The notes below the pieces were generated by a model. The model was not told the DNA's origin. It searched no databases and saw nothing but the letters and a program-made list of their open reading frames with translations. From contig CP007053.1 in NCBI GenBank assembly GCA_000242935.3, positions 4,883,001-4,947,000 on the forward strand: DNA of 64,000 nt, read 5' to 3'. This document shows positions 10,069 to 27,776 of this stretch, piece after piece; the stretch's first letter is position 1; each line of letters opens with the position of its first letter. A program made the translations under genes and the position numbers. The stretch is from Opitutaceae bacterium TAV5 (GTDB lineage: Bacteria > Verrucomicrobiota > Verrucomicrobiia > Opitutales > Opitutaceae).

Positions 10069-10590
10069 ATGAAGAAGACGCTCCTTGTCTTGTTGTTCCC
10101 GCTCGCCCCGATCCTCGCGGCGACCACCGGTCTTGCCCAGGGCCTTGCTGCCTCGCTCGAGGCGTTCAGGGTCACGCCCGCCACCGCCTCCGCGCCCGAA
10201 ACGTTTGTCGCCGCCGATGCGGCCTCACCCGGCGACGTGATCGAATACCGTGCGACCTACACCAACACCACGGACCGCGCGCTGAAATCCGTGGCCCCCG
10301 AAATCCCTGTCCCGGCCGGGCTCACCTGGCTCGCCGGTGACGATGCTGCGGGCTCTGCCCCTGCTGCCGCCGGCGCGGCCACGAAGCCGGCTCCGGTCGC
10401 CGCCAGCCTCGACGGGAAAACCTTCGCGCCGCTGCCGCTGCTCGACGACACCGGCCGGCCGGTCGACCCCGCCCGCATCCGCGCCCTGCGCTGGAGCATC
10501 CCCGAAATCGGCGCCGGGGAAACCGTCACCCTCGCCGTTCGCGCCATGGTCAACCGCCCTGCGGTTCTCACCGCGACCTCTGTCCGCTGA
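10069..10590 (+). CDS. Single-domain DUF11-like secreted protein
   Basis: A small 173-residue protein with a clear Sec signal peptide (MKKTLLVLLFPLAPILAATT, cleavage near AQG). The mature part resembles one DUF11 repeat: SPGDVIEYRATYTNTTDRAL, then VPAGLTWLAGD, and a closing IGAGETVTLAVRAMV strand. DUF11 domains are Ig-like beta-sandwiches found in bacterial surface and fimbria-like proteins. The ATG at 10069 gives the signal peptide; an upstream in-frame start would add Arg-rich sequence lacking signal features. It is the first gene of a same-strand run of DUF11 genes, 35 bp before the 871-residue protein, so it is probably a minor subunit or assembly factor of the same surface structure. Confidence 0.8.
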   Translation: MKKTLLVLLFPLAPILAATTGLAQGLAASLEAFRVTPATASAPETFVAADAASPGDVIEYRATYTNTTDRALKSVAPEIPVPAGLTWLAGDDAAGSAPAAAGAATKPAPVAASLDGKTFAPLPLLDDTGRPVDPARIRALRWSIPEIGAGETVTLAVRAMVNRPAVLTATSVR

Positions 10591-10625: not shown

Positions 10626-13241
10626 ATGAATATCACCACATCCAGCTCGCCCGTCACGGCCCGGCGCAGGAATTTCCTGCGAGGGGCTGTCGCCGGGCTC
10701 ACCCTCGCGGGCCTCGCGCTCCTCGCGCACGCGGCCGCGCCGCTCGTTGGCACCGCCATCGGCAACCAGGCCTCCGCCACCTACACCGACGATTCGGGCA
10801 CCGAACGCACCGTGTTGTCGAACACCGTCACCACGCTCGTCCAGCAGGTGTACGCGCTCGATCTCCGGCAGGACAACACCCGCACCGCCAATCCGGGCGG
10901 CCAGGTGTTTTTCCCGCACACCGTGACCAATCTCGGCAACGGCATCGACACGTTCGCCCTCGCCGCGATCAACGGCGGCGGCGCCACCACGCTCGGCAAC
11001 ATCGTCATCTACATCGACGCCGACGGTGACGGCAACCCGGACAACTTCACGCCGATCACCACGACCGGCCCGCTCGCGGCCGGCGCCTCCTTCCGCTTCA
11101 TCGTGGCCGCCACCGTGCCCCCCGGAGCCACGCTCGGCAACAACGGCCTCGTCACCGTCACCGCCACCTCGCCCAACGGAGGCGGCACGCCGATCGTCGA
11201 GACCAACACCGATACCGCCACGCTCACCAACGACGCCGTCATGCAGGTCACCAAGGCCGCCAGCCTCGGCTCCGGGCACCCTGGCACCGCCACCTTCACC
11301 TATACGATCACCTATCGCAATATCGGCAACACCCCCGCCTCGCAGTTCACGATCACCGACGCGATTCCGGCGGGCCTCGCGGTCGGCTCCGCCCGCTGGT
11401 CGGTCAGCGGCTCCACCGTGCTGGACAGCGCCACCTTGCCGTCCTCCGTCGCCGCCGGCTCCATCGCCTACAACGCCGCCGGCCAGAACGTCACCTTTGT
11501 CATCGGCGAAGTGGCGGCCGGCGTCAGCGGCTACGTCACGGTCGAGGTCTCCGTCAACGCCGGCGTGGCCCCTGGCATCCTCAACAACACCGCGTATTAT
11601 TCCTTCATTACGGGAACGGATCCGGACCCGTCCTCGCCGACCCCCACCAACACCGTGCCCTTCGAGGTCCTGCCTGACGTCAGCCTCACGTTCGAGGGTC
11701 CGCCCGACCCGCTGCCTCCCGTCGCCGCCGGCGGTTCGGTTTCGTTCAACAACGTCCTTACCAACACCGGCACCGGCACCGACACGTTCAATGTCGTCGT
11801 CAACGGCCCCGGCACCTTCCCGGGCGGCACCACCTTCCAGCTCTTCAAGAGCGACGGGGCCACTCCGCTGACCGATACCAACGGCGATGGCGTCCCCGAC
11901 ACCGGTCCGGTGGCGGCCGGCGCCACCTACACCGTCGTTCTCCGTGCGAACATCCCCGGGGACGCCGCGGCGACCGGGACCACCCTCGCCGTGACCAAGA
12001 CGGCCACCTCCACCGTGGACCCGACCAGATCCTCCACCGCCACCGACGAGATCGAGGGCATCACCGGCGCGGGCGTCGATCTCACTGGCGTCGCCGGCGG
12101 CAGCGGCCCCGGCACCGCCACGGTCATCGACACCGTGACCGGCAATCCCGGCTCGACCGTGATCTTCACGCTCAACGTGGAAAACACCGGGCCCAATCCC
12201 GACACCTTCAACCTCCTTGCGGACAAGGACGGCAGCTTCGGCACCGTCAACGATCTGCCCTCGGGCTGGACCGTGGTCTTCAAGGATGCCAACGGCGTCG
12301 TCGTCTCCAACACCGGCGTCATCGCCGCCGGCGGCACCCGGACCTACACCGCCGAAGTGACGATTCCCGCCGGCACCCCGCCGGGCGATGTTTCCGTCTG
12401 GTTCCAGTCGAAATCGCCAACGACCGGCGCGGCCGACTACCTGCACGATCAGGTCAGCGTGAACACCGTCCGCGGGATTACGCTCCAGACCAACAACGTG
12501 GGCCAGACCTTCCCCGGCGGCTCGGTCGTCTACGAGCATGTTCTCACCAACACCGGCAACATCACCGAAGGCGCGTCGGGTGACACCAACACCCTGGCGA
12601 TCGCCCTCGCCGACAGCCTCGCCGGCGCCGGCTTCACCTCGGTCGTCTATTACGATGCCAACAACAACGGCGTCATCGACGCGGGCGATCCGATTGTCGA
12701 CACCTCTGCGGCCGCGTATCTCTCCACCGTGAAAACCACCGGCCTGATCAAGGGCGGAAGCATCCGCTTCCTCGTCAAGGTGCAGGCTCCGATCGGCGCC
12801 AACGACGGCGCGATCAACGTCACCACGCTCACGATCACGCCTGCGAGCGAGACCATCGGAGGCACGGCCGCTCCCGCCGCCGTCTCCAATACCGACACGA
12901 CGAGCGTCATCCGCGGCAACCTCACCATCGTGAAGGAGCAGAGCATCGATAACGGCGCCACCTGGAGCCAGAACCAGCTCTCGGCCCTGCCCGGTGCGCA
13001 GATCCTCTACCGGATCACCGTGACCAACGTCGGTTCGGCCACCGCCGAGGACATCGTCGTCAACGACACGATCCCGGCCAACACGACGTATGATTCCGGA
13101 TACACGCCGACCGTCACCCTCGCGGGTGCCTCCACGCCGGGCGCATGGGCGCTCACCGGCACCAACATCGTCGTCACTGTGGGCAGCCTCACGCCCACGC
13201 AGACAGCCGTCGTCACCTTCGCGGTGAAGATCGACGAGTAA
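10626..13241 (+). CDS. DUF11-repeat surface protein with Tat-like signal
   Basis: The protein has 871 residues. The N-terminus reads ARRRNFLRGAVAGLTLAGLA, a twin-arginine (RRxFLR) signal followed by a weakly hydrophobic segment and an AHAAA cleavage region; Tat export is inferred from this. The rest is made of DUF11-type Ig-like modules, each with a PGxxVxFxxxVTNTG segment (for example PGGQVFFPHTVTNLGNG, about residue 90) and modules beginning with Lys such as VTKAASLGSGHPGT (about 207) and IVKEQSIDNGATW (about 768). It also has calcium-loop-like runs (YIDADGDGNPDN). It ends in a domain strand TAVVTFAVKIDE with no LPXTG, PEP-CTERM or T9SS tail. It probably forms an outer surface filament or coat with its neighbours, though its anchoring is not evident. 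Confidence 0.85.
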   Translation: MNITTSSSPVTARRRNFLRGAVAGLTLAGLALLAHAAAPLVGTAIGNQASATYTDDSGTERTVLSNTVTTLVQQVYALDLRQDNTRTANPGGQVFFPHTVTNLGNGIDTFALAAINGGGATTLGNIVIYIDADGDGNPDNFTPITTTGPLAAGASFRFIVAATVPPGATLGNNGLVTVTATSPNGGGTPIVETNTDTATLTNDAVMQVTKAASLGSGHPGTATFTYTITYRNIGNTPASQFTITDAIPAGLAVGSARWSVSGSTVLDSATLPSSVAAGSIAYNAAGQNVTFVIGEVAAGVSGYVTVEVSVNAGVAPGILNNTAYYSFITGTDPDPSSPTPTNTVPFEVLPDVSLTFEGPPDPLPPVAAGGSVSFNNVLTNTGTGTDTFNVVVNGPGTFPGGTTFQLFKSDGATPLTDTNGDGVPDTGPVAAGATYTVVLRANIPGDAAATGTTLAVTKTATSTVDPTRSSTATDEIEGITGAGVDLTGVAGGSGPGTATVIDTVTGNPGSTVIFTLNVENTGPNPDTFNLLADKDGSFGTVNDLPSGWTVVFKDANGVVVSNTGVIAAGGTRTYTAEVTIPAGTPPGDVSVWFQSKSPTTGAADYLHDQVSVNTVRGITLQTNNVGQTFPGGSVVYEHVLTNTGNITEGASGDTNTLAIALADSLAGAGFTSVVYYDANNNGVIDAGDPIVDTSAAAYLSTVKTTGLIKGGSIRFLVKVQAPIGANDGAINVTTLTITPASETIGGTAAPAAVSNTDTTSVIRGNLTIVKEQSIDNGATWSQNQLSALPGAQILYRITVTNVGSATAEDIVVNDTIPANTTYDSGYTPTVTLAGASTPGAWALTGTNIVVTVGSLTPTQTAVVTFAVKIDE

Positions 13242-13293
13242 CCATAACACGTCAGCGCTGGCGCCGCCTGTCGTTTTCAGGGACGGGCGGCGC

Positions 13294-13387
13294 CATTCGT
13301 GCCGCTGCCGACGAGGCGCGACGCGTCTCGCCCCGCCAGGCTTTCCCGCACCGGCGACGCTTCGCAGCGCCGGCAGCGGCACGAATG
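13294..13387. repeat. GC-rich palindromic repeat, family shared with 42.1 kb
   Basis: The 17-nt arms CATTCGTGCCGCTGCCG (13294-13310) and its exact complement (13371-13387) enclose two smaller stems. It fills most of the 184-bp gap between two DUF11 genes. The left half is clearly related to the reverse complement of the repeat near 42.1-42.24 kb (shared TGCCGCTGC and GACGAGGCGCG segments), so this is a dispersed REP-like family. Confidence 0.75.
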
Positions 13388-13425
13388 CCGCCGCTCCCGG
13401 CCAGCTTCCTCTACCACGCCTTTCA

Positions 13426-16400
13426 GTGACGACCCGCCTCGCACGGCTTCCCGCTCTTCCCGCCCGCCTCTTCGCGCCGCTCGCCTGCGCCTTCGCATGC
13501 CTTCTGGCCTGCGTGTGCGCCCTTGCGCCCGCCCGCGTCGACGCCGCGCCGCCCGCGCCCGGCACGCTCATCCGTGCGCAAGCGTACCTCAACTACATCG
13601 ATCCGGTCCTCTTCATCGGTCGCGAGACCCCGTCCAATATTGTCCGCGTCCTCGTCGGCGGCGCGCCCGGCCTCGATCTGCAACAGGACAACGCCGGCAC
13701 CTTTGCGCCCGGCACGTATTTCGCCTTCGTCCACACGCTGACCAACACCGGCAACACCGGCGGCGCGTACACGCTCACACCGGCCCTCGTCGCGGGCGGC
13801 GGCTTCACGCCGCAAAACCTCGCGCTCGTCATCGACGCCAACGCCAACTCCGTCGTCGACCCCGGCGAGACGTCGCTCCCCTTCGCCCCGCACGCCGTCA
13901 CGCTCGCGCCGGGCCAGACGCTGCAGTTCATCGTCACCGGCCTCGTGCCGCCTTCCGCCCCGGCGGCGGCGTCCCTCCAGCTTCGCATCGAGGCTTCCCT
14001 CGCCGAAACCGGCGCCACCGCCATCAATACCGACACCGTCGCCACCGGCGGCGGCGAACTCCAGTTCTTCAAGTCCGTCTCGCCCTCCACCGCCGCCTGC
14101 GGCGAGGAAATCACGTACACGCTTTCCGGCACCCACAACTTCCCCGCCGCCCTCGAACCGACGGTCATCGCCATCGACGGAGCCACGGTCTCCCGGGTCG
14201 TTGTCCGCGATCCGCTTCCCGGCAACATCGGGCTGGTCTCGATCCTCGCCGCCAACGGCGCCACGCCGCTCTACCACTTCGCCGGCACCGCCTTTCACGC
14301 CTACGTGACGACCGCGCCCGCCGATCTCTCCGGGGTCGACGCCGTGGCTTTCGCCTTCGACACCATCGCCCCCGGCGTTTCCTTCAGCGTTTCCTTCCGC
14401 GCCCGCATCGGCGGGCAGGCCACGGGCTCCATCGTCAATCTCGCGTCGGTTTATTCGACCAGACCCGGAGGCACCCCGCTCGTCACCGTCTCCAATCCCG
14501 CCACGGTTTCCGTTCCCTCCGTGGCGCCGACCATCCGGTATTACGATCCGCCCTTCGCGCGCACCGTGCCCGCCTCCCGCCTCGGCAATCCGCTCTACGT
14601 CCAGGTCGAGGCCGGAGCGTGTAACGAACGTTCGGATACGGTGGAAACCGTCACCGTCGTCATCACCTCCTCGCTGACCGGCGACCGCGAGACGTTCACC
14701 GCCACCGAGACCGGTCCGAATACGGGCATCTTCCGCATCCTTCCCTCCGTCCCCTCGCAGGATGCCGCCGCCAATCCTGTGGTAGCTGGCGACGGCATCC
14801 TGCAAACCCTTCAACGCGACGAGCTCACCGCCGAGCTCACCGACTGCGGCGGCGTCACCGTGCGCGCCACGATCCTCATCGATCCGACCGGCATCGTCTA
14901 CGACAGCCGCACCAACCGGCCCGTGGCCGGGGCCACCGTCACGCTGATCGACGTCACTGGCGCCGGGCTCGGATCCGGCGGTTCCGCCGGCGGCCTCGCC
15001 CGCGTGTACGACGAGGACGGCGTCACCTCCGTATCCGCCACCCAGGTCACCGGCGCCGACGGCCTCTTCCGTTATCCGATTGTCGCGGCCAGCACCTACC
15101 GCCTCGAAATCACGCCGCCGGAAAACTACAGTTTTCCGAGCGTCATCCCGCCCGGTTCGCAGCCCGCCGGCCGCCGCATCCACGCCTCCGGATCCTACGG
15201 CGGTTCGTTTCCCGTCGATCTCTCCACCGGCGCCGTGTTTCTCGACGTGCCGGTCGACACGACGGTGGCCGACGGTTTTGTCCTCGAAAAAACCGCCTCG
15301 CGCGACACCGCCAGCATCGGCGATTCCGTCATCTACACGCTGAAACTCTCCAACAGCTCCGGCGCCCCGTTCCGCGGCGCGTACATCGACGACCGCCTGC
15401 CCGCCGGTTTCCGCTACGAACGCGGCACCACCCGCCGCGACGGCGCGCCCGTTGCCGATCCCGAAGGCGGCGTCGGCCCGCAACTGCGCTTCCCGGTCGG
15501 CACGCTCGCCGACGGGGACAGCGCCACCTTCACCTACCGCGTGCGCCTCACGCCCGGCGCGGAAAAGGGCAACGGCATCAACATCGCGCAGGCCACCTCG
15601 CTCGGCCCGCCCGTGCTCGTTTCCAACCAGGCCCAGGCACGCGTCCGGCCCGAGGCCGGGATCTTCGATCCCTCGGCGGTCATCATCGGCACGGTCTTCG
15701 TCGACGCCAACGGCAACGACATCCAGGACCCCGGCGAACCCGGCGTGCCCGGCGTGCGCCTCATCCTCGAGGACGGCACCTACGCCATCACCGACGGCGA
15801 AGGCCAGTACAGCATCTACGGCCAGCGTCCCGTCGCCCATGTGCTCAAGCTCGATCCGCACACGCTCCCGCCCGGCGCGAAGCTCGGAGGAAAAAGTCCG
15901 CGCTTCGCCGGCGACCCCGGTTCACGTTTCGTGGACCTGAAAAATCACGAGCTTCACAAGGCCAATTTCATGCTGGTCGAGCCCACGGAGTCGCTCTACG
16001 CCGCCATCGAGGCCCGCCGCAAGCAGATCGATGCCTGGCAGCCCGAGATCGCCACCGCACTCGCCACCACGTTCAACGCCGACGGCACGCCCACGCTCGT
16101 CAGCGATCCGCAGGGACGCGAGGCCGCGGGCGTCATCGGCTCCGGCCGCGCGTTGCCCGGCCCGTTCGAAAACGTTCTCCCCGCCGGCACGCTCACGCCG
16201 GCCAATTCGTCGTTGCCGCCGTCGCCCGTCGCTGCCGTGCCGCTCGTCGATCTCGAAACCGTCGTCGCCGGACTGGCCGACGCCGGGCCCGGTTTTGTCG
16301 ACCTGCGTCACGGCGACACGCTTCCCTACGACCGCGTCACCCTCCGCGTGAAAGGCGCCACCGGGGCGAAGCTGGAACTGCTTCTCAACGGCGAGCCCGT

Positions 16401-19395
16401 CCCCGAATCCCGCATCGGCAAGATCGTCCACCGGCAGCAGCCCGCGCTCCAGGCCGTCGAATACGTCGCCGTGCAGATGAAACCCGGCCTCAATCACCTC
16501 GAACTCGTGCAGAGCGATCTCTTCGGCAACGTCCGCGGCCGCTCGCTCATCGACGTCACCGCGCCCGACCGCATGGCCCGGCTCGACGTGACGTTCTCCA
16601 CCCTCGAACCCGCCGCCGACGGACGCACGCCCGTCGAGGTGCGTGTCACCGCCGTCGACGCCGGCGGCATCCCGGTCACCGCCTCGCTCCCGCTCACGCT
16701 CGAAACCACGCTCGGCCGCTGGGAGGTGGAGGACGTCAACGCCCGCGAGCCCGGCACCCAGGTTTTCCTGAAAGACGGCGCCGCGACGTACCGGCTCATC
16801 CCGCCCGTCGAGCCCGGCGAGGCACGCATCGTCGTCTCCAGCGGTGCGATGAAGGCCGAGCGCCGCCTCGCCTTCCTGCCCGAGCTTCGCCCGATGATCG
16901 CCGCGGGCATCATCGAGGGCCGTTTTGCGTTCAACAAGCTGAGTTCCTCGAACATCCTGCCGCTCGATCCCGGCGACGCCTTCGAATCCGAGCTGCGCGA
17001 GTCCGCCGGCATCGGCAGCGACGGCACCGCTTCGGGTCGCGCCGCGTTTTACCTCAAGGGCAAGATCAGCGGCCAGACGCTGCTCACCGTCGCGTACGAT
17101 TCCGACAAGCGGAAGGACGACGTGCGCCTCTTCCGCGACATCGATCCCGACGCGTATTACCCCGTTTACGGCGACTCCTCGGTCAAGGGCTACGACGCGC
17201 AATCCACCGGAAAACTCTACGTGCGCATCGACCACAACCGCTCGTTCCTGCTTCTCGGCGATTTCAACACCCGCGCCGACAACGAGGTCCGCCAGCTCGG
17301 CGACTACAACCGCAGCTTCAACGGCGTGCGCGTGCAGCACGAGACGGCCCGCTTCAGGGGCGGCCTCTGGGCCAGCGACGACAGCACCGACCAGGTGATC
17401 CGCGAAATCCCCGCCAACGGCACCTCCGGTCCCTTCAACTTCTCCACCGGCGACGGCGTCCTCGGCAGCGAGACGGTCGAGATCCTCGTGCGCGACCGCA
17501 ACCAGCGCTCCGTCATCCTCAGGACGACCACGCTGGCGCGCAACGCGGACTACGATTTCGAGCCCTTCTCCGGCCGCCTCCTCCTGCGCCGCCCCGTGGC
17601 GTCCGTCGACGAAAATTTCAACCCGCAGTCGATCCGCATCAGCTACGAGGTCGACACCGGCGGCCCGAAGTTCTGGGTCTACGGCGGCGATGCGCAGGTG
17701 AAGCTCCACGAACGTTTCGAGGTCGGGGCGTCCTTCGCCCGCGACGAAAACCCCGTCGATCCCTACGACCTGCAAAGCGCCAACGCCACCTTCCGCATCG
17801 CGTCCGGCACGTACCTCATGGTCGAGGGCGCGCGCAGCGATTCGCTTCTCGATCCGGCCGACGCCTCCCGCTCCGTCGGCTACGCCGGCCGCATCGACCT
17901 GCGTCACCGGTCCGCGAATACCGAGGCCCGCGTGTATTTCGGCAAGACGGAGGAATCCTTCAACAACCCGGCCTCCACGCTCAATGCCGGCCGCGTCGAG
18001 GGCTCCGCCAAGGTCACGCACCAGCTCGCGCCCCGCACCCAGCTCATCGGCGAAGGCATCTACACCGAAGACATCGCCGGCTCCGGCAACCTCAAGGGTG
18101 TGCGCGCCGACGTGGCCTACACGTTCGAAAACCAGGTGCGCGTCGCCGTCGGCGGGCGTTACAGCGAGGAGACGCAGACGCCGGCCAACCCCGGCGCCGA
18201 CGCCGCCGACACGCCGCTCACGGTTCGCAGCGTGCGCGCCCGGGTGGATACGCCGGTGCCGCGCCTGCCGCAGGCCAACGTTTTTGCCGAGTACGAGCAG
18301 GACGTGGTCGAGAGCGAACAGCGCCTCGTCGCCGCCGGCGGCGCGTACCAGGTCAGCACGAAGACCCGCCTCTACGCGCGGCACGAATTCATCTCGTCGC
18401 TCGGCAGCGATTTCGAGCTCAACACCAGCCAGCAGAACAACCGCACGCTCGTCGGCCTCGAAACCGAGTACCTGCAGGATGCGTATTTTTACAACGAATA
18501 CCGCGTGCTGGATGCGATCGACGGCGGTCAGGCCGAGGCCTCCACCGGCCTGCGCAATCTCTGGAACGTGGCCGACGGACTCCGCCTCAACACCACCTTC
18601 GAGCGCGTCACCCCCTTCGACGGCGACGGCACCAACCGGTCCACCGCCGCCACCGCGGCCTTCGACTACACGCGCCCGGCGGACTGGAAAGCCACCGGCC
18701 GGCTCGAAGGACGCTGGGGCGACTCGTCCGACAACTACCTCAACACCTTCGGCTATGCCCGCAAGCTCGACGAGCAGTGGACGTTCCTCGGCCGCTCGAT
18801 TCTCAACACGCAACTCTACGACGACGCCGCCTCGTCCGATCTCTGGCAGGGGCGTCTCCTCGCTGGCCTCGCCTGGCGGCAGACGGAGAAGGACGAATGG
18901 AACGCGCTCTTCCGCTACGAATACAAATACGAGCGCGGCTCTTCCGCGCTCGGCGACGAGGCCATGCGCCGCCAGGTCCACACCCTCGCCACGAGCGTCA
19001 ATTACCAGCCCGACCGCCGCTGGATCTTTTCCGGCCACTACGCCGGCAAGTTTGTCATCGAGCGCGGCGGTTACGGCGGCTCCACCGATTACTTCGCGCA
19101 CCTCCTCGCCGGTCGCGCCATTTTTGAGATCACCGAAAAGTGGGACGCCGGCCTCAACCTCGCCGTGATGTTCTCGGACAGCTTCCGCAACGCGCAGTAC
19201 GCCGTCGGCCCCGAGATCGGCCGCGTGTTCACCAAAAACGTCCGCATCGGTCTCGGCTACAACCTCGTCGGCTTCACCGACCGGGATTTCGATACCGCCA
19301 GCACCGCGCAGGGCTTGTTCCTGAGCCTGCGCATCAAGTTCGACGAAAACCTCTTCAAATGGGCCAGCTTCAAGAAAACGGAGGACGCGCGATGA
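13426..19395 (+). CDS. DUF11/SdrD-type protein with C-terminal outer-membrane beta-barrel
   Basis: At 1989 residues this is a multidomain surface protein. It has a signal peptide (1-43, ending PARVDAA), then DUF11-like modules (about 60-480 and 618-740, e.g. VLEKTASRDTASIGDSVIYT). A carboxypeptidase-regulatory-like domain (about 488) and an SdrD_B-like domain (about 754, GTVFVDANGNDIQDPGEPG) are also present. An invasin-like Ig domain (about 1055) precedes a region from about 1205 to the end with alternating aromatic and polar strands typical of an outer-membrane barrel (YYPVYGDSSVKG, LYVRIDHNRSFLLLGDFNT, final GLFLSLRIKF). It therefore probably sits in the outer membrane with extracellular or periplasmic Ig modules. 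It starts with GTG at 13426, and its stop overlaps the next gene by 4 bp (ATGA). A role as anchor or translocator for the giant downstream protein is inference. Confidence 0.85.
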   Translation: MTTRLARLPALPARLFAPLACAFACLLACVCALAPARVDAAPPAPGTLIRAQAYLNYIDPVLFIGRETPSNIVRVLVGGAPGLDLQQDNAGTFAPGTYFAFVHTLTNTGNTGGAYTLTPALVAGGGFTPQNLALVIDANANSVVDPGETSLPFAPHAVTLAPGQTLQFIVTGLVPPSAPAAASLQLRIEASLAETGATAINTDTVATGGGELQFFKSVSPSTAACGEEITYTLSGTHNFPAALEPTVIAIDGATVSRVVVRDPLPGNIGLVSILAANGATPLYHFAGTAFHAYVTTAPADLSGVDAVAFAFDTIAPGVSFSVSFRARIGGQATGSIVNLASVYSTRPGGTPLVTVSNPATVSVPSVAPTIRYYDPPFARTVPASRLGNPLYVQVEAGACNERSDTVETVTVVITSSLTGDRETFTATETGPNTGIFRILPSVPSQDAAANPVVAGDGILQTLQRDELTAELTDCGGVTVRATILIDPTGIVYDSRTNRPVAGATVTLIDVTGAGLGSGGSAGGLARVYDEDGVTSVSATQVTGADGLFRYPIVAASTYRLEITPPENYSFPSVIPPGSQPAGRRIHASGSYGGSFPVDLSTGAVFLDVPVDTTVADGFVLEKTASRDTASIGDSVIYTLKLSNSSGAPFRGAYIDDRLPAGFRYERGTTRRDGAPVADPEGGVGPQLRFPVGTLADGDSATFTYRVRLTPGAEKGNGINIAQATSLGPPVLVSNQAQARVRPEAGIFDPSAVIIGTVFVDANGNDIQDPGEPGVPGVRLILEDGTYAITDGEGQYSIYGQRPVAHVLKLDPHTLPPGAKLGGKSPRFAGDPGSRFVDLKNHELHKANFMLVEPTESLYAAIEARRKQIDAWQPEIATALATTFNADGTPTLVSDPQGREAAGVIGSGRALPGPFENVLPAGTLTPANSSLPPSPVAAVPLVDLETVVAGLADAGPGFVDLRHGDTLPYDRVTLRVKGATGAKLELLLNGEPVPESRIGKIVHRQQPALQAVEYVAVQMKPGLNHLELVQSDLFGNVRGRSLIDVTAPDRMARLDVTFSTLEPAADGRTPVEVRVTAVDAGGIPVTASLPLTLETTLGRWEVEDVNAREPGTQVFLKDGAATYRLIPPVEPGEARIVVSSGAMKAERRLAFLPELRPMIAAGIIEGRFAFNKLSSSNILPLDPGDAFESELRESAGIGSDGTASGRAAFYLKGKISGQTLLTVAYDSDKRKDDVRLFRDIDPDAYYPVYGDSSVKGYDAQSTGKLYVRIDHNRSFLLLGDFNTRADNEVRQLGDYNRSFNGVRVQHETARFRGGLWASDDSTDQVIREIPANGTSGPFNFSTGDGVLGSETVEILVRDRNQRSVILRTTTLARNADYDFEPFSGRLLLRRPVASVDENFNPQSIRISYEVDTGGPKFWVYGGDAQVKLHERFEVGASFARDENPVDPYDLQSANATFRIASGTYLMVEGARSDSLLDPADASRSVGYAGRIDLRHRSANTEARVYFGKTEESFNNPASTLNAGRVEGSAKVTHQLAPRTQLIGEGIYTEDIAGSGNLKGVRADVAYTFENQVRVAVGGRYSEETQTPANPGADAADTPLTVRSVRARVDTPVPRLPQANVFAEYEQDVVESEQRLVAAGGAYQVSTKTRLYARHEFISSLGSDFELNTSQQNNRTLVGLETEYLQDAYFYNEYRVLDAIDGGQAEASTGLRNLWNVADGLRLNTTFERVTPFDGDGTNRSTAATAAFDYTRPADWKATGRLEGRWGDSSDNYLNTFGYARKLDEQWTFLGRSILNTQLYDDAASSDLWQGRLLAGLAWRQTEKDEWNALFRYEYKYERGSSALGDEAMRRQVHTLATSVNYQPDRRWIFSGHYAGKFVIERGGYGGSTDYFAHLLAGRAIFEITEKWDAGLNLAVMFSDSFRNAQYAVGPEIGRVFTKNVRIGLGYNLVGFTDRDFDTASTAQGLFLSLRIKFDENLFKWASFKKTEDAR

Positions 19396-22300
19396 ACGTT
19401 TCCTCCGGCAGTTTTTCCGCATCGCGTTTTCCCGGCGTTTCCGTTGTCGCCGCTCTTCTCGCGCTTTGGTTCCTCCCCGCCGCTCAGGCCGCGCCCGCGG
19501 TTTCCGCGACCAACGCCACCGGCTTCGAGGCCGCCGAGGCGGGCCGGTCCTTCATGACCATCGACGGCGTCTGGAACGGTTCGCAGGAGGTGACGGCGAC
19601 CACGGGCGACACCTTTGTCGTCACCTGGACCAACTCCGGCGACGCCACCGCGTTCGATTTCGCCCCGTCCGTGACGCTGCCCGACGGGTTTCACTACGTG
19701 GCCGGCACCGCCACGCTCAACGGCGCCGCCGTCACCGCGACGCAGACCGGCAGCACGCTCGTTTTCAACCTCGGCGGTTTCGACCTCGCCGCCGGCGCGT
19801 CGGCGATCATCCGTTACGGGGTTTATGCCGATGCCTCGGTGCCGGACGGCACGCGCCAGCTTGTCCACCGGCACACCTACGCCCTCACCGACGGCGGCGC
19901 GCTCCTCACGCCTGCGCCCGCCGCCGGCCCGCAGCAGAACATCGTCGTGCAGGCCGGCGCCAGCACGCTGAGCATCACGCCGAGCCAGCAGACCCGCGCC
20001 GTCGGGCAGACCGCGACCTTCACCGTCACGATCACCAACACCGGTCTCGGCGGCCTTTTCGACGTCGTCCTCGACCAGTCCGCCATCGCTCCCGCGAGCG
20101 ACACGCTGCGCCTTCTCACGATCGCGCAGACTTCCCCGGCGGGTCGCCCCGCCGCCGTCTCGGGGACGGGCGGCTCCATCCTCACGCTCGGCTACCTCGC
20201 GCCCGGCGAGTCGTTTTCCGCCACCGTCACCGCCGAGGTCCTGGCCTGCGGCGACATCGTCAACACCGCGGCCACCGACGACCGCGCGCACCGGACCGCC
20301 GCCAGCGGCAAGGCCTCCGTGCAGCTCGATCTTCGCCAGCCGCTCGTCGGCTACTCCGCGCCTTCCGTCACGCTCGATTACAACGTGCCGGTGACCGTGA
20401 CGATCCCGGTCGCCAACACCGGCCTGGGCGACGCCCGCAACTTCACGCTCCACACGACGCTGCCCGGTCTCGGCGTCACGGTTTCCAGCGTCGCCGCCGG
20501 CTGGACGTACAGCGCGACGACCGGCGTATTCACCCTCAATGACAACGGCGGCACCGTCGCCAACGGCGCCACCGCCACGCTGGCCTTCGACCTCGAGGCG
20601 ACCGACATCTGCAACGACTCCGGCGCCGGCTCCGTTTTTTACGAAGCGCGCTACACCAACGGCTGCGACGATCCCTACACCATCCCGCAAGCCATCGGCT
20701 CCATCGCGGCCGCCGCGGACGCGCCTTCGCTGACGTTGTCGAAAACCGTCAGCGCTTCCCGCATCGCCACCGGTGAACCGGGTTCGTGGACGCTGACGCT
20801 TTCCGCCACCCATTTCACCAATATCGCGACCGAATCCATCACGGTCACCGACACGGTTTCTCCGCTGGTCACGATCCTCAACCCCGGCTCGCTGCCCGCG
20901 GGCGTCACCTGGAACGGGACCACACGCACGCTCGCCTGGACGGTGGCCCGCAACACGCTTTCCGCCCCGCAGAGCGTGGAGATCGACTTCGCCGTCAGCG
21001 ACGACCCCTGCGACGCCGGCCAGATCGTCGGCAACACGGCCGGCGTCACGGCCGTGACCACACGGGGTTGCGCGCTCGCCGCCAGCGCCTCCGCCGGTTT
21101 CCTCATCACCAACAATCCCGGACGCTACGCCAACCAGTATTTCAACGTCACCGGAACGCCCGCCGGCGGCATTTACGAGACCGGCGCTCCGACCGCCGAC
21201 AGCACCCGCGACGCCGGTGAGGGCGAGTTCATCCCGTTCGAGGCCAATTACGAATTCGGCGCCGCCTATCCCGGCATCTGGACCGGCACCACCTACGAGG
21301 ACGGTTTCGGCGGCGTCGCCGGCATGACGCTCGTCCCCGGCTCGCTTACGATCCGGCGTGACGGCGGTGCGCCGGTCCCCGTCCCGGCCTCTGCGGTCAC
21401 CACGCTCTCGCCCGGCTTCCGCATAGATCTCGGTTTCCTCGCGCAGGCCGGCTGGTTCGGCTCCGATCCGGTGGCCGGGCACCGCATCACGCTCGATTAC
21501 CAGGTCACCGCGCCCGATGCCGCGCTCGCCGGCGCCGCCACGCGCGCCGTCACGCAACTCACCACGCTCGACCTCGAACTCGGCGACACCGGCACGCCCG
21601 ACGGCTGCGGCGTCACCACGCAGACGAAGTTTACGCAGGGCGCCTTTTATACGATCGGTCGCGCCGTCGCCGCCATCACGCTGTCGATGGCTCCGCAGAT
21701 CGACGTCTGCAAGGAAGAGGCGCTCACGATCACGCTGGACAACGTCGATGCCCACCAGACCGAAAACCTCCTCGTCACGCTCTTCACCGGAACGGCCTTC
21801 ACCTACGATCCGGCGCAGACTCCCGTTTACGGCGACGTCTTCGCCAGCGGCTACGCGATCGCACACAACGCCAACGGCGGCGTCGATCCGTCCTTCACGA
21901 TCACCCGCACTGGCCACGCCGGCGGCACCGGTCCGCTCACCGGCGCCGGCACGATCACGGTGCGCGTCGTCCGCAAGGTCACCGGCACCACGGCCACCAC
22001 CGGCCTCAACGCCGAAGTCCGTTACGACAGCTGGCAGACCGAAGCCGCCGCCGCCCGCGTTTACAGCACGGCGACGGCCTGGGCGCCCCAGCTCGTCCGC
22101 ACCGCCACGCTCGCCCTCACCAGCACGCCGGGCACGCTGCCCGTCACCGGCTCGACCGTAACGTTTGTCAACTACGTCACCAACACCAACGCCGGCACCG
22201 CCTGGGGAGCGAAGCTCGACATCGACCTGCCCGCCGGCCTCGAGATGGATGCCGCGGCCACGCTCGCGACCAACAACGCCAATGCCGGCTTCCCCGTCGC

Positions 22301-25300
22301 CGTCGGCGGACAGCAGCTCGCCTGGGCTCTCGGCGACATCCTGCCGGGCGAGACGCGCGTCATCACGGTCGTGGCCACCGTCGCCGCTACCGGACAATGC
22401 GAGATCGCGCCCAACCCCACCGGCATCCGGGCGAGCTGGGGCTGCGACGGCTCCGCTTTTACGGAGACCGCCCGCGCCCAGCCGGTTTTCGTTTTCCCGC
22501 GAGGCCAGATGCAGGTCGTGCACGACAGCTCCGGCTCGCTCGCGCGCCTCTGCGATCTCGGCGAGGTGATCATCATCGTCCGCAACACCGGAGCGACCGC
22601 CATCCGGGATGCGATCGTCCGGGAAATCCTCCCGTCCGCGCAGGGACTCTCGCTCGAACCCGGCTCCGTGCAGTACAGCGTCAACGGCGGCGGATGGACC
22701 TCCGCCGCCGACCCGTCCGTGAGCGGTGACACCCACACCTGGACGGCGGCGCAGATTCCCGCGCTGGCGAAACTCGTCCCCGTCGGGGCGGAGATCGATG
22801 GCGTCACGACCCACACGGTCCGCATCCGGTTCGCGCTCCGGGCCACCACCGCGCTGGCCGGCACCTCGCCCGTGCTCAACGCCTCGGCCACGGCCACCGT
22901 CGCCTGCGGCGATCTCGTCGATTCGCCCGCGCAGCCGTTTACCATCCCCGTCGACCAGCCCCGCATCGTCGTTGCCAAAACCGGCCGCAACGTCACCGCC
23001 GGGGAGACGGGCTTTGTCGAGACCGTTTACGGCGGCCAGGGTGACGAGATCGAGTGGCGTATCGAAATAAAAAACACAAACACCCGCGACGAGGCCGCGC
23101 ACTTCATCCGCCTTTCCGACGCGCTTTCCGGCAGCGGCGGCACGGCCCTGATCACCGGGCCGGGCCACACCGGCGGCACCGATCTCGCGCCCGGGCAGGT
23201 CATCGCGATCCCCGATCTCGCGCCCGGGGCGAGCGCGGAATACCTGATCACCGAAATCCTCGGCGCCAACTGCGTCACCGCCGATCCCGCGACGTCCGTC
23301 TCCTGGGGCTGCTCCGCCCCCGCCGCCGGCCAGCACAACGCCGTCACCGCGCCCGGCGCGCCGACCGACTCCGCGCGCATCGTCATGCAGCCGAGCATCG
23401 CCGGTGCCGCCGAAATCGCGCAGACCATCACGTATCTGCCCGGCGGCCGCGCCCGCATCGACGTGGAAATCCTCAACCGCGGCGGCAACGCCTTCGACCT
23501 CGTCGTCACCAATACGTTTCCCAACAGCCAGATGGTGCTCGACGAGACGGTCGCGCCGACGTTCGGCAACCACGTGACGACTTACTACCCGACCCGCGAT
23601 TCCGTCATCACCGGCGTCACGTACGACAGCACCACCGACACGGTCGCCCCGAAGTTCACTTTCCGGAACGGCGGCAGCGCCAAACCGATGCTCCGTTACG
23701 GCGACAAGGTCACGCTGACGTATTACGTGCGCTCCACCGTCTTCGACACGGATTTCGCCGACGCCTTCCCCGAACTGGCCACCGAGGACACGCCCAACGG
23801 CCGTGATCCCGCGCCGCCCGCCCCGGGCACCAACACCGTGCGCGTCGATTACCGGAACAGTTGCGCCGGATCCGGTTTTTCTTCCGTCGGCGCCACCATC
23901 GACCTGCGTTCGCCCAACCTCAGTGTGACCGGCGTCGGCCCGAATGGCGGCAACACCGTCATCACCGGCACCGACCCGCAGACTTACACGTTCACGATCA
24001 CCAACGTCGGCGATGCCGACTCGGTGGCCGATTTCATCACCATCGACTTCCCGGTTCTCGGCTCCGGCTGGACGGTGCAGTCGATCACCTTTTCGACGAC
24101 CGGCACCGCCGGCTCCGGCGGCAACAGCGCGAGTCAGGCCGGCGGCGTATGGACACTGACACCCGGACAACTCGGCACCCTGGCGGCGGGGCAGAGCATC
24201 ACCGTCAGCGCCACGCTCGCCTACAGCGGCACGCCCGGTCCGCTCTCGCTCGTCCTGCGCGTGCGCGGCGAGGCGCGCGGGCAGGACCCCGGCGTGTCCG
24301 CCCCGGGCAACTATTCGTACGACCAGCGCGGCCAGCGCATCGTCGGCGTCGAGCTCGCCAAAACGCTCCTCGACTCCACGACCGAGCCCGATTCCGCCGG
24401 CGCCACGGTGTTCGTCGGCGAGGAGGCGACCTTCCGCCTGCGCGCCCGCTTTTTCGGCGCCGAGGCCGACATCACCGGTGTGACGCTCCGCGACACGCCC
24501 GCCGACAGTTCGGGTGGCGGTCTCGCGCATACCGGGCTCGCCTTCGTTCGCAGCGCGGCGACAACGGACAACAAGGTCGCGACCACCCTCGCGGCTCCGG
24601 TGCCGGTGGCCGCTCCGGCCAGCGTCGCGGCCAGCCGCGTCAACCATACCGCCGCCAGCATCAGCCAGGCCGACGTCCTCGCCGGCGATGCCGTCATCGA
24701 GAACGACCTCACCGTCCGCGTCCTCAACCTTGCGGCCAACACCGACGGCAAGACCCTGCGCAACAACCTCGGCCTGGAGTTCACCTATCTCGGCCAGCGT
24801 TTCCGCAGCAACGACAGCGACGACGGTTTCAGCGCCAGCGGTTCGCCGGCCTCGTCGGCCAACCTTCACCGGCAATCCGACCTGACCGTCCGCCGCCCGC
24901 AGCTCGCCGTCGAAAAAACGGTTCGCAACGTCACGCTCTCCGGCGCGTTCGCGGCCACGGCCGGCGGCCAGGCCGGCGACGTGATCGAGTACCGGCTCGT
25001 CGTCACCAATCCCGCCGCTGCCGGCGCTCCGCTCTACAACCTCGTCGTCACCGACACCGTGCCCGCGCCGTTCAGTCTCGATGCCGGCACGGTCGGGGCC
25101 GACACCACCGGCGGCGGCACGGTCGACGTCGCCAGCACCGGCGGAGTGACCGGCGGCCCCGGCGGGACGCTCGCGCTCGACGAGACCAACACGCCGGTCC
25201 CCGACGCCGGCCGCAACCTCGCCCGCCTCGACCCCGGCCGGAGTGTGACGATCCTCTACCGCGGCACGCTCGAAGCGACCGTCAACCCCAGCCAGACGCT

Positions 25301-27776
25301 GACCAACAACGCCTCCGTCACCGGTTATTCCGTGCCCGTCGATGCGGGCACGCTCGCCGCCCTGCACCAGACTGCGCCGGCCGGCGTCGCCGACACCGCG
25401 ACCGGCGCCCTCAGGCTCGCCGCCGACGGCGTCGCCGACATCCGGATACACGCCATCGACCAGCAGAAGCAGATCACCGCCGCCACGTATCACACCGCGC
25501 CCTTCGACCCGGTCTTCATCGGCGAACGGATTACTTACCAGGTCAGCCTCACACTGCCGCTCGGCACCGTGCCCGATCTCACCGTGGTCGACACGCTGCC
25601 CGCCGGTTTCGCGCTGGCTCCGGGCAGCCCGCCGGTCGTTGCCATCGGAGGCGACATTTCCGACGCCGGGAACATCCCGGCCGTCTCCATCGCAGGCACG
25701 GGCGATCCGTCGCCGCAGACGCTCACCTGGTCCTTCGGCCAGCGCGTCGCCGGCGGCGCGGATCGCACCATCACCATCGACTACACGGTCGATGTGCTCG
25801 ACGTGCCGGCCAACACCGCCGCCGCCAGCCCCGCGCGCATCAACAATGCCACCTACAATTTCACCGGCCTGCCCGGCGACGTCACCAACTTCAACAAGGT
25901 CGGCGTCACCCTCGCCGAGCCCGTGCTCGCGCTGGCCAAGACCCGGCTGCTCCCGGCGGGCGAAAACCTCGTCCGCCCCGGCGACACCGTAAAATTCCGG
26001 CTGACCGTCGCCAACACCGGCAACGCTCCCGCCTGGAATATCGCCCTGCGCGATGTGATCCCGGCCGGCATGCGCGCCGCCGCTCCCGTCCTCGACGCGG
26101 CGACGATCGACGGCGTCGCGCTCGCCCCGCCCAATCCCGCTCTCGCCTGGGATGCGGGGTCCGGCGACTGGACCCTCGCGCTCGACGACACCGCGCCGCT
26201 CCCCGCCGGCAAGGCGCTCGTCGTCGAGTACACCGTCACCGTCGACACCGACAACACGCTCAAGGGCAAGACGCTGACCAACTCCGCCACGGTCGGGGCG
26301 TTTTATTCGAAACCGTCCGCCGACACCCACGCCCGCCGCATCTATCCGGCTGTCGGCCCCTCCACGCAGGATGTCGTCGTCGGCCTCGAAATCCGCGGCT
26401 CCGTCTACAACGACACCGAACCCAACGGCCACAAGGACGCGCAGGAAGACTGGACCGGCGGCCCGACCGTCTGCGTCAATCTCGTCCCCCTTTCCGGCCC
26501 CGCTCCCGCCGGCGCGGTTTACCGCACGGCGACGGTCAACTCCGGGAACGGCGAGTACCTGCTCCCGCTCGTCCCGCCCGGCACATACCGTATCGTTCTG
26601 ACCACTACGGCTGCCGCCACAGGCGCGCAGGCGCCCGCCGCCTGGATGTTCCGCACGCCGCCCGACGGCGTCCGGCCCGTCGCGGTGACGGCCGCCGATC
26701 TCCTTGGCGAGGATTTCGGGCTCTACCAGGGCCGCGCGGTCAGCGGCATCGTTTTCCGCGACACCGGCGACGGTGCCGGCATCGCCAACAACGGCCGCCG
26801 CGACGGCGCCGAATCCGGCCTCGGCGGCGTGACGGTTCGCCTCCTCGACGCCGGCGGCGCCGAACTCGGCAGCACCGCGACCGACGGCTCCGGCGCGTTT
26901 TCCCTCTACATCCCCGACCACGTCGCCACCGGCGCCACGCTCCGCGTCGTGCAGTCCGCCGTCTCCGCGCACATCGCCACCGGCGGGCATCCCTCCGCCG
27001 CTTACGACCGCGCCGACCGCACGATCACCGTCACCACGAACGGCGCGGCCATCGGCGGGCTGGAATTCGGCAACGTCCCGGAGAACGTGCTCCTCACCGA
27101 TGGCGCGCAGACGATCCTGCCCGGCGGCACGGCGTTTTACCGGCACACCTTCATCGCCGGCACGGGGGGCACGGTGACGTTCACGCTCTCCTCCGCCGCC
27201 TCGCCCGCGATTCCGTGGACCCAGGTGGTCCTCGCCGATCCCTCCGGCAACGGCACACCCGGCGCCGTCATCGAGGGTGCGGCCATCCCCGTGACGGCGG
27301 GCCAGGAATATCATCTCGTCGTGCGGCACAATGCTCCCGACGGCGCGCCCTGGGGCGCGGTCAACCCGGTCACGCTCACCGCGACCTTCGCCTTTGCCGG
27401 TTCCTCCGGTCTCCCCGACGCGGCCCTCACCCGGCAGGATGTCACCACTGTCGGGGCCACTGCCAGCGCCGGCCTGCAACTCGTCAAGACCGTGGACCGG
27501 AGCACCGCGCTGCCCGGCCAGGAACTCGTCTACACGATCGCCTGGACCAACACCGGCGCGGGTCCGCTGACAGATCTCTTCATCGCCGACTCCACGCCGG
27601 CTTACACGGTTTTCGTGAGCGCGGCGGCCATCACCCCGCTGCCGGCCGGCCTCACGCTCGACCGCATCGACGCCCCGGCCGCCGACGCCACCGGAGCCAT
27701 TCGCTGGGTCTTCACCGGCTCGCTCGCTCCCGGTGCCGAGGGCGCGGTCACTTTCAAAGTCAGGGTCGAGGATTAA
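19392..27776 (+). CDS. Giant DUF11-repeat (fimbria/adhesin-like) surface protein
   Basis: The 2794-residue protein begins with a signal peptide (VVAALLALWFLPAAQAAPA). It is built almost entirely of DUF11/isopeptide-type Ig modules, whose starts are marked by a conserved Lys-Thr: LSKTVSASRI (about 449), VAKTGRNVTAGETG (1194), LAKTLLDSTTEP (1655), VEKTVRNVTLSG (1839), LAKTRLLPAGENL (2180), LVKTVDRSTALPG (2696). Two SdrD_B-like modules lie near 2331 (EIRGSVYNDTEPNGHKD) and 2449 (SGIVFRDTGDGAG). In related fimbrial proteins such lysines form intramolecular isopeptide bonds; that is inferred here. It ends in a module strand (EGAVTFKVRVED) without a known cell-wall or PEP-CTERM signal. The ATG at 19392 overlaps the barrel gene's stop, so the two are probably made together. 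Likely a long adhesin or surface fibre. Confidence 0.87.
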   Translation: MNVSSGSFSASRFPGVSVVAALLALWFLPAAQAAPAVSATNATGFEAAEAGRSFMTIDGVWNGSQEVTATTGDTFVVTWTNSGDATAFDFAPSVTLPDGFHYVAGTATLNGAAVTATQTGSTLVFNLGGFDLAAGASAIIRYGVYADASVPDGTRQLVHRHTYALTDGGALLTPAPAAGPQQNIVVQAGASTLSITPSQQTRAVGQTATFTVTITNTGLGGLFDVVLDQSAIAPASDTLRLLTIAQTSPAGRPAAVSGTGGSILTLGYLAPGESFSATVTAEVLACGDIVNTAATDDRAHRTAASGKASVQLDLRQPLVGYSAPSVTLDYNVPVTVTIPVANTGLGDARNFTLHTTLPGLGVTVSSVAAGWTYSATTGVFTLNDNGGTVANGATATLAFDLEATDICNDSGAGSVFYEARYTNGCDDPYTIPQAIGSIAAAADAPSLTLSKTVSASRIATGEPGSWTLTLSATHFTNIATESITVTDTVSPLVTILNPGSLPAGVTWNGTTRTLAWTVARNTLSAPQSVEIDFAVSDDPCDAGQIVGNTAGVTAVTTRGCALAASASAGFLITNNPGRYANQYFNVTGTPAGGIYETGAPTADSTRDAGEGEFIPFEANYEFGAAYPGIWTGTTYEDGFGGVAGMTLVPGSLTIRRDGGAPVPVPASAVTTLSPGFRIDLGFLAQAGWFGSDPVAGHRITLDYQVTAPDAALAGAATRAVTQLTTLDLELGDTGTPDGCGVTTQTKFTQGAFYTIGRAVAAITLSMAPQIDVCKEEALTITLDNVDAHQTENLLVTLFTGTAFTYDPAQTPVYGDVFASGYAIAHNANGGVDPSFTITRTGHAGGTGPLTGAGTITVRVVRKVTGTTATTGLNAEVRYDSWQTEAAAARVYSTATAWAPQLVRTATLALTSTPGTLPVTGSTVTFVNYVTNTNAGTAWGAKLDIDLPAGLEMDAAATLATNNANAGFPVAVGGQQLAWALGDILPGETRVITVVATVAATGQCEIAPNPTGIRASWGCDGSAFTETARAQPVFVFPRGQMQVVHDSSGSLARLCDLGEVIIIVRNTGATAIRDAIVREILPSAQGLSLEPGSVQYSVNGGGWTSAADPSVSGDTHTWTAAQIPALAKLVPVGAEIDGVTTHTVRIRFALRATTALAGTSPVLNASATATVACGDLVDSPAQPFTIPVDQPRIVVAKTGRNVTAGETGFVETVYGGQGDEIEWRIEIKNTNTRDEAAHFIRLSDALSGSGGTALITGPGHTGGTDLAPGQVIAIPDLAPGASAEYLITEILGANCVTADPATSVSWGCSAPAAGQHNAVTAPGAPTDSARIVMQPSIAGAAEIAQTITYLPGGRARIDVEILNRGGNAFDLVVTNTFPNSQMVLDETVAPTFGNHVTTYYPTRDSVITGVTYDSTTDTVAPKFTFRNGGSAKPMLRYGDKVTLTYYVRSTVFDTDFADAFPELATEDTPNGRDPAPPAPGTNTVRVDYRNSCAGSGFSSVGATIDLRSPNLSVTGVGPNGGNTVITGTDPQTYTFTITNVGDADSVADFITIDFPVLGSGWTVQSITFSTTGTAGSGGNSASQAGGVWTLTPGQLGTLAAGQSITVSATLAYSGTPGPLSLVLRVRGEARGQDPGVSAPGNYSYDQRGQRIVGVELAKTLLDSTTEPDSAGATVFVGEEATFRLRARFFGAEADITGVTLRDTPADSSGGGLAHTGLAFVRSAATTDNKVATTLAAPVPVAAPASVAASRVNHTAASISQADVLAGDAVIENDLTVRVLNLAANTDGKTLRNNLGLEFTYLGQRFRSNDSDDGFSASGSPASSANLHRQSDLTVRRPQLAVEKTVRNVTLSGAFAATAGGQAGDVIEYRLVVTNPAAAGAPLYNLVVTDTVPAPFSLDAGTVGADTTGGGTVDVASTGGVTGGPGGTLALDETNTPVPDAGRNLARLDPGRSVTILYRGTLEATVNPSQTLTNNASVTGYSVPVDAGTLAALHQTAPAGVADTATGALRLAADGVADIRIHAIDQQKQITAATYHTAPFDPVFIGERITYQVSLTLPLGTVPDLTVVDTLPAGFALAPGSPPVVAIGGDISDAGNIPAVSIAGTGDPSPQTLTWSFGQRVAGGADRTITIDYTVDVLDVPANTAAASPARINNATYNFTGLPGDVTNFNKVGVTLAEPVLALAKTRLLPAGENLVRPGDTVKFRLTVANTGNAPAWNIALRDVIPAGMRAAAPVLDAATIDGVALAPPNPALAWDAGSGDWTLALDDTAPLPAGKALVVEYTVTVDTDNTLKGKTLTNSATVGAFYSKPSADTHARRIYPAVGPSTQDVVVGLEIRGSVYNDTEPNGHKDAQEDWTGGPTVCVNLVPLSGPAPAGAVYRTATVNSGNGEYLLPLVPPGTYRIVLTTTAAATGAQAPAAWMFRTPPDGVRPVAVTAADLLGEDFGLYQGRAVSGIVFRDTGDGAGIANNGRRDGAESGLGGVTVRLLDAGGAELGSTATDGSGAFSLYIPDHVATGATLRVVQSAVSAHIATGGHPSAAYDRADRTITVTTNGAAIGGLEFGNVPENVLLTDGAQTILPGGTAFYRHTFIAGTGGTVTFTLSSAASPAIPWTQVVLADPSGNGTPGAVIEGAAIPVTAGQEYHLVVRHNAPDGAPWGAVNPVTLTATFAFAGSSGLPDAALTRQDVTTVGATASAGLQLVKTVDRSTALPGQELVYTIAWTNTGAGPLTDLFIADSTPAYTVFVSAAAITPLPAGLTLDRIDAPAADATGAIRWVFTGSLAPGAEGAVTFKVRVED

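Follow-up and report, generated by a model that had tools for sequence, protein, structure and literature searches.

We propose that four adjacent genes in the genome of Opitutaceae bacterium TAV5 probably encode an outer-membrane-anchored, multi-subunit fibre whose subunits are joined head-to-tail by completion of DUF11 (CLIPPER) domains. The genes lie in the window, a stretch of 64,000 nucleotides of a 7.4 Mb genome, and what is new is a sequence-level reason for their proteins belonging together: truncated tails on some of them match orphan heads on others. The unclosed C-terminal DUF11 domain of one subunit would take the two-strand N-terminal piece of the next, and strand complementation of this kind would build a fibre of the form g3-(g2)n-g4.

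The sequence-only reading of this DNA described four adjacent DUF11 genes of 173, 871, 1989 and 2794 residues on one strand, and the ORF coordinates confirm them as g1 (10069..10590), g2 (10626..13241), g3 (13426..19395, GTG start) and g4 (19392..27776), all on the + strand, the ATG of g4 overlapping the stop of g3. Long overlapping ORFs on the opposite strand were judged spurious, and conservation across phyla marks the + strand as the coding one. All four proteins begin with a signal-peptide-like N-terminus, as read by eye. Their DUF11 content also holds: g2, g3 and g4 score above the Pfam cut-off, and g1, which matches DUF11 models only (Pfam, NCBIfam), is borderline at 22.3 vs 24.6 bits. 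The same scans place an SdrD_B domain in g3 as well, and DUF11, DUF7927, DUF7507 and SdrD_B domains in g4. The first gene is predicted to encode a small secreted protein with one DUF11-type domain. The second, our proposed fibre subunit, combines an orphan closing piece (the head) with an unclosed DUF11 domain (the tail). In g3 a signal is followed by a DUF11/SdrD_B head, an Ig-like domain and a C-terminal barrel-like region, and g4 is a giant with an unclosed tail and, by profile scans, no head piece, which we propose forms the distal part.

The evidence for incomplete tails comes from a 150-position profile built from 29 segments of complete internal DUF11 domains, in which Lys occupies position 11, Asp position 45 and Asn position 122, searched against 61 proteins of this and related loci. 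It matches the C-terminus of 35 of the 43 g1, g2 and g4 proteins (g1 12/16, g2 14/16, g4 9/11). Every one of these matches stops at model positions 111-119, 29 of them at 111-113, and in each case the protein ends no more than 15 residues further on. Because the matches stop before column 122, the Asn strand and the last strand are missing from the tails. The other eight proteins have no automatic C-terminal match; their ends look alike, apart from one g1 whose tail is longer. Alignments that end early are not rare as such, since among internal matches that start by position 25 (training segments included) 64/90 reach at least position 122 and 26/90 end by 119; the argument is that the protein stops there.

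A complementary piece is found at the N-termini. A regular expression for the closing strands proved too loose, and profiles were used instead. With a closing-strand profile trained on internal domains only, and a threshold above 99% of shuffles within the N-terminal 170 residues, scores were obtained for 12/16 g2, 7/18 g3, 0/16 g1 and 1/11 g4 proteins, the sole g4 score coming from an internal fragment of a cut ORF. The g2 head of the window comprises residues 42-74 (10749..10847, + strand), with closing strands that include Asn47, and begins ~6 residues past the likely signal cleavage site, as judged by eye. Its residues I45, N47, Q48, A49, A51, Y53, S65 and N66 are invariant in 11 aligned g2 sequences. 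Since the first folded domain of g2 has a weak match to closing strands within itself (residues 147-200), the head piece appears to be an orphan. The corresponding piece of g3 (residues 45-75; 13558..13650, + strand) carries Ala in place of Asn and falls below the closing-strand threshold by itself in this genome; at the G095 locus the motif was not found in the g3 head. Taken together, the profiles show a DUF11 domain that is, by its sequence pattern, split between proteins, with the tails of g1, g2 and g4 lacking the Asn strand and the heads of g2 and g3 carrying it.

The residues retained on either side of the split suggest what joining could entail. CLIPPER (DUF11, PF01345) domains are described in the main text of Costa et al. 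2025 (PMC12617251; 9IFR) as isopeptide domains of fibrillar adhesins. In the solved domain, 9IFR, a Lys715-Asn806 bond lies beside Asp748, presumed catalytic, and one more strand follows the bonding Asn (PMC12617251). Our internal-domain profile matches the 9IFR chain (E 9e-8), and the Lys and Asp of the two coincide in the alignment. Within the loci, the Lys-Asp-Asn triad is complete in 40 of 42 internal complete domains, and Lys, Asp and Asn are the sole fully invariant columns across 27 internal domains. The g2 and g4 tails have no Asn partner, but Asp is kept in all 23 that could be mapped, and Lys is invariant in 15 aligned tails and was read in the first tail strand in 16/16 g2 and 11/11 g4 proteins; profile mapping places this Lys in just 9/23 because of an insertion. 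In the window, the g2 tail is a two-domain module (12507..13238, + strand) common to g4, without a closing strand, whose Lys770 and Asp814 are invariant in the 11 aligned g2 sequences, and g4 ends in the same module (27042..27773, + strand), its unclosed DUF11 domain bearing Lys and Asp by profile and residue reading.

The missing Asn was read in all 16 g2 heads. Among 18 g3 heads, also by reading, 11 have Asn, six have Ala, Ser or Gly (this genome, its close relatives and Roseitalea) and one has no motif. The g1 tails differ: Ile, Leu or Gly stands at the Asp column in 12/12, and Lys was read in the matching strand in ~6/16. Profile and residue mapping of the window's own g1 (10069..10590, + strand) likewise find neither closing strands nor the isopeptide Asp. 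With Lys and Asp on the tail and Asn on the head, an intermolecular isopeptide would be expected, as inside a complete CLIPPER domain. The residue pattern thus predicts that g2 heads are welded, that g3 and g2 join non-covalently in this genome and that g1 binds reversibly; from the residues, covalent welding appears possible at every g2 head read and at the 11/18 g3 heads with Asn, which do not include that of this genome.

The C-terminus of g3 looks like a large outer-membrane β-barrel. The pre-barrel segment and barrel-like region span 16870..19392 (+ strand), and the model and fold matches point to ~29 strands in series from ~17764. Averaged over 26 aligned sequences, the last ~520 residues show a strand alternation of 0.44 vs 0.256 ± 0.020 in 500 shuffles, an excess of ~9 SD; the soluble Ig-like part preceding the barrel is likewise above its shuffles (0.386 vs 0.242 ± 0.039), which means that a high value does not by itself identify a barrel. 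Cysteine is absent from these ~520 residues in the window's g3. An AlphaFold model built with seven sequences is moderate (mean pLDDT 60, pTM 0.40), with ~29 strands in series starting at residue 299, blocks past residue 300 mostly at pLDDT 60-85 and low confidence earlier; a previous five-sequence model was poor (pLDDT 44). The 50 Foldseek matches listed are nearly all membrane β-barrels, at TM-scores of just ~0.1-0.4, and include LptD, TonB receptors, SlpA, SprA and a type 1 pilus platform chain. SprA itself (8gl8, 8gl6, 6h3j, 6h3i) matches weakly, at TM 0.07-0.17, and Pfam gives no SprA-type match for the barrel region. The barrel-like end that the sequence-only reading had assigned to this protein is thus backed by agreement among alternation, strand series and fold matches, although the model is only moderate and the support is short of proof.

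The barrel resists assignment to a known family. Pfam and NCBIfam scans of the region in 26 sequences (the window and 25 relatives) found no specific family, some of them giving weak general matches such as Porin_4, BBP2, OMP_b-brl, Invasin_D3 and Big_1. Pfam scans of g3 and of these 26 sequences found no usher family and no autotransporter, two-partner secretion, T11SS barrel or POTRA family. In the text of a T11SS paper (PMC12282271), matches to 'DUF11', as far as they go, are mostly to DUF1194. A PDB sequence search with the whole of g3 gave 0 matches at E 0.1, and one with the barrel profile gave two (E 0.027 and 0.65), nothing informative. No second barrel copy was detected elsewhere in this genome (E 0.01). 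Barrel relatives of 27-31% identity occur on two IMG/VR contigs labelled viral (L101, L102), and further scans of viral contigs yielded no additional usable sequence.

The g2 and g4 tails share a C-terminal module. Their last 245 residues align at 99.9% probability (E 6e-32); among comparison slices, internal g2 vs internal g4 gives 0.5%, g2 tail vs internal g4 14%, and internal g2 vs g4 tail 73% (E 3e-5). In ten locus-bearing genomes the module has 20 matches above 100 bits, all in g2 or g4 proteins (one, G005:C197, is assumed to be the end of the giant on a second contig), and no further proteins elsewhere in these genomes exceed 100 bits. One alternative reading is that the module is a sorting signal recognised by the g3 barrel, in the manner of T9SS substrates, with the heads having no joining role. 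Such a signal is an unlikely explanation of the locus, but the one that fares best among the alternatives: of the g2 and g4 slices compared the module aligns best, it forms the extreme C-terminal end of both, its strong matches in the ten genomes are confined to these proteins, the barrel is large, and the T9SS translocon SprA is among its weak structural matches. A sorting signal would leave unexplained, however, why the strands missing from the tails stand at the beginning of g2 and g3 and why Lys and Asp are retained in a domain without its Asn partner, and NCBIfam gives no match to a T9SS C-terminal domain (E 0.1).

DUF11 proteins from outside the locus end differently. In five locus-bearing genomes, all eight single-gene DUF11 proteins of ~550 residues that were read outside the locus continue past the closing strands, by inspection. 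Three such proteins are encoded in this genome (L134, L135 and L136, on C1 near 953, 1199 and 3567 kb); they end in ESTFVY or ESTHVY and have relatives in G005, G046, G079 and G156. From genomes of the phylum that lack the locus, 20 DUF11 regions were taken, of which 16 closed ORFs were counted, three open ones set aside and one left without a qualifying match. All 16 end outside a DUF11 domain, with at least 57 residues of other sequence after the last DUF11 match in each, controls that show only that ends like those of g1, g2 and g4 are unusual.

A search for co-occurrence of the genes supports a co-inherited unit by genome sets, gene order and trees. The closest named relatives of the barrel are from Geminisphaera colitermitum (87%), an Ereboglobus MAG (78%) and an Opitutaceae MAG (69%); Geminisphaera belongs to the Opitutaceae (Verrucomicrobiota), and its genome, G005, lies in the window's genus. 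A draw of 120 genomes of the family gave barrel matches in seven, six of them over nearly the full query, and nearly full-length g2 in exactly those six, plus a weak match in G004. Among 387 Verrucomicrobiota genomes, 14 have a barrel match, which covers most or the whole of the query in 12 and parts of it in two (G077 and G195). Strong g2 matches (at least 139 bits, in an ORF separate from g3) occur in the same 12 genomes, several of them covering only half the g2 profile, and short weak ones in five others (G004, G183, G290, G341 and G470). A draw from the class of the Roseitalea genome (Alphaproteobacteria) gave a barrel match in 11/385 genomes. In four of them (G471, G640, G528 and G715) the match extends into the pre-barrel part; all four also have a g2 match, weak in G528, and G693 has a weak g2 match besides its barrel. 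No g2 match was obtained in the remaining six, and the barrel family therefore extends beyond the four-gene unit. In these large draws two candidates were scored per genome, and the counts are uncorrected for shared ancestry.

Gene order is conserved as well. Among 24 loci with a g2 relative plus g3, from Verrucomicrobiota, Alphaproteobacteria, an Acinetobacter plasmid and Thermus, 18 have g1-g2-g3 in this order on one strand; the 24 include G095, whose g2 is on another contig, and leave out the distant barrel-only loci L047, L049, L052, L101 and L102 and the surroundings of G361, G442 and G447. The exceptions are Roseitalea, with a g1-like piece past the giant, and both G715 loci, with a g2-like ORF ahead of g1; g1 was not found at the G095, Deinococcus aquaticus and Sinorhizobium meliloti Ak57 loci. 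On plasmid p4 of Acinetobacter haemolyticus, g2 runs across three ORFs and an OmpA-family gene stands between the barrel and the last DUF11 gene. Two adjacent genes take the place of g3 in Thermus thermophilus HB8 (pTT27) and D. aquaticus, one for the head and one for the Ig-like domain with the barrel match (E 1e-10 over the first 40% of the barrel profile in Thermus, E 4e-23 in Deinococcus). A covalent link between head and barrel is therefore dispensable, and the fact that one lineage fuses them while another keeps them apart suggests that they work jointly. In the pTT27 version (L056 14418-28774) the barrel gene is TTH_RS10920 and g2 is TTH_RS10910; the products are annotated as hypothetical or DUF11 proteins, and this megaplasmid also bears reverse gyrase.

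Trees of g2 and the barrel across 14 loci agree, with a distance correlation of 0.91 that was reached in 0/5000 permutations. In the barrel tree G640, from the Roseitalea class draw, branches next to the window's order, a placement consistent with movement of the unit between lineages as a whole, and several copies are plasmid-borne. At its edges the unit does come apart. The fourth gene varies in length and number among loci: proteins of ~950-1040 residues stand in place of the giant in two Opitutaceae, and no g4 relative was found alongside the Pacificitalea cluster. In G004 (L142 694-1789) a g1 copy and an ORF like the g4 tail are all that is present, with no barrel or strong g2, which may be either a decayed locus or a minimal pair. 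Together with the distant barrels that lack g2, these cases partly bear out the objection, foreseen in the sequence-only reading, that the genes might be found apart.

A second alternative is that joined DUF11 proteins form a scaffold in the periplasm or envelope, under the outer membrane, as a spacer or coat anchored by the barrel. Carboxypeptidase-regulatory-like domains often lie on the periplasmic side of TonB receptors, and g3 has a weak match to one, under the Pfam cut-off. The OmpA-family gene within the Acinetobacter locus and the presence of the unit in Thermus, which has an S-layer-type envelope, would also suit a scaffold. We nevertheless consider this location improbable: an extended chain of 2794 residues would far exceed the width of the periplasm, the unit is patchy and often plasmid-borne, unlike a structural layer, and DUF11/CLIPPER domains are described in the main text of PMC12617251 as stalks of surface adhesins. 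It is more improbable still, to the point that we give it very little credence, that each protein is its own surface adhesin, grouped only by regulation or by common DUF11 repeat ancestry. In its favour, DUF11 proteins are common adhesin stalks (PMC12617251, main text), g4 is variable in length and number and one locus has no g4; against it, the order is the same across phyla, the genome sets are near-identical, the trees match, and heads and tails look incomplete alone.

The surroundings of the locus are conserved over a shorter range. Upstream lie a NarL/LuxR-type response regulator (8252..8884, + strand) and a receiver-Hpt phosphorelay protein (8941..9729, - strand) that is beside the locus in Geminisphaera and G046 too. 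Downstream are a DUF1573 protein (27847..28752, + strand), whose relatives adjoin the barrel gene in G196, G351 and G292 and follow the giant in G046, and a 7TMR-DISM histidine kinase (29104..31197, + strand), found downstream of the G046 locus as well. A phosphorelay of response regulator, receiver-Hpt protein and kinase thus flanks the locus both here and in G046. The response regulator has a 72% relative beside the G046 locus and an 83% relative on another contig in Geminisphaera. A regulator shared across loci was considered and rejected, a genome-wide search placing the nearest relative in G063, G095 and G156 elsewhere in the genome; the association holds only for close relatives. Beyond the kinase and a MauE-like gene, a TonB-dependent receptor with a plug domain is encoded at 31916-34288.

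The gap between g2 and g3 (13242..13425, + strand) contains strong GC-rich hairpins, with a 19-base inverted repeat bearing one mismatch (z -5.0). These are possibly an RNA brake that leaves g2 more abundant than g3 and g4, and a hairpin here could fix subunit ratios; against this, the g2-g3 gap of G046 folds no better than shuffles (z -0.87).

Assembly of the fibre by head-to-tail completion could then proceed as follows. Signal peptides would export the subunits to the periplasm, where g1, which has no head and whose tail lacks the catalytic Asp and in most cases Lys, may hold head pieces without welding, as a reversible cap or chaperone. The barrel would insert in the membrane and may pass folded Ig-like domains, as ushers with 24 strands do. 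With its barrel and a head piece only, g3 would be the base; g2, with head and tail, the repeatable middle; and g4, with a tail only, the distal giant. From the complementary pieces, the g3 head would go into a g2 tail and the g2 head into the tail of a g4 or g2, with a Lys-Asn weld at g2 heads suggested by the conserved residues. We infer from this arrangement that the proteins physically assemble, that the fibre lies outside the cell and that the barrel serves as both exit and anchor. The earlier proposal of a dedicated secretion and assembly unit on a barrel platform is partly supported, by the co-inheritance of the genes and by a g3 in which a head is fused to a barrel-like region; in Thermus and Deinococcus, head and barrel genes are split, so covalent carriage is not required. 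By analogy, the function is most likely attachment or aggregation under force, as the main text of PMC12617251 proposes for other DUF11 stalks; no phenotype evidence for the locus was found in the literature searched.

Parts of this scheme have precedents. The CLIPPER adhesins of PMC12617251, which include an Acinetobacter adhesin with an OmpA-like anchor, share the domain family, the Lys-Asp-Asn triad and a role as surface stalks of Gram-negative bacteria, but there the bond, as the paper presents it, lies within one chain, whereas here the Asn strand is carried by other proteins; 'split' and 'donor strand' are absent from its main text. An incomplete C-terminal Ig domain with an N-terminal donor, a pattern seen here at the sequence level only, is familiar from pili. 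Chaperone-usher pili have a large outer-membrane barrel and a tip subunit with a groove and no donor. In type 1 and P pili, as summarised in PMC9715654, C-terminally incomplete Ig-like subunits are completed by the next N-terminus. Our locus differs in that no usher or chaperone family was matched and g1 has no PapD-type match, and in its multi-domain giant subunits, a barrel with its own head and a possible covalent lock. The archaeal threads of Saci_0406 (PMC9715654) combine a head-to-tail donor-strand fibre with an apparent intermolecular isopeptide. Those threads, in the paper's account, consist of one archaeal subunit with no outer membrane, their bond joins an N-terminal Asp to an Asn two subunits along, and 'DUF11' is absent from the text of PMC9715654. 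The best PDB match of our internal-domain profile is 9FLP (E 2.6e-14), the grappling-hook protein GhpA of Aureispira, also a giant with DUF11-like stretches. We take GhpA to be a Bacteroidota predation hook. SpyTag/SpyCatcher is an engineered split isopeptide domain. In the pair derived from RrgA, as PMC5333627 outlines it, an isopeptide domain is likewise split and the two chains weld. Both are engineered, whereas here the split would be natural.

A more tentative proposal, to which we give somewhat less than an even chance, is that the locus represents a class of self-welding surface fibres in several diderm phyla, with a DUF11 domain naturally split into a tail with Lys and Asp and a next head with the Asn strand, not described in the literature searched; the open literature (titles and abstract beginnings, outside subscription journals and bioRxiv) yielded no description of the locus or of a split DUF11 domain. 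In such a class, export, order and covalent locking would all reside in one mobile four-gene unit, with no sortase, usher or T9SS; the catalytically dead g1 tail would stop premature welding of heads, and the barrel-fused head would set the base. If self-welding proves true, these fibres would be a natural diderm counterpart of engineered tag/catcher welding, and giant covalent fibres could be built without sortase. The unit may also provide new protein-joining pairs, some thermophilic in origin. It would further supply a concrete, quickly testable assembly rule for uncharacterised DUF11 genes in several phyla, including those of the tractable Thermus thermophilus HB8.
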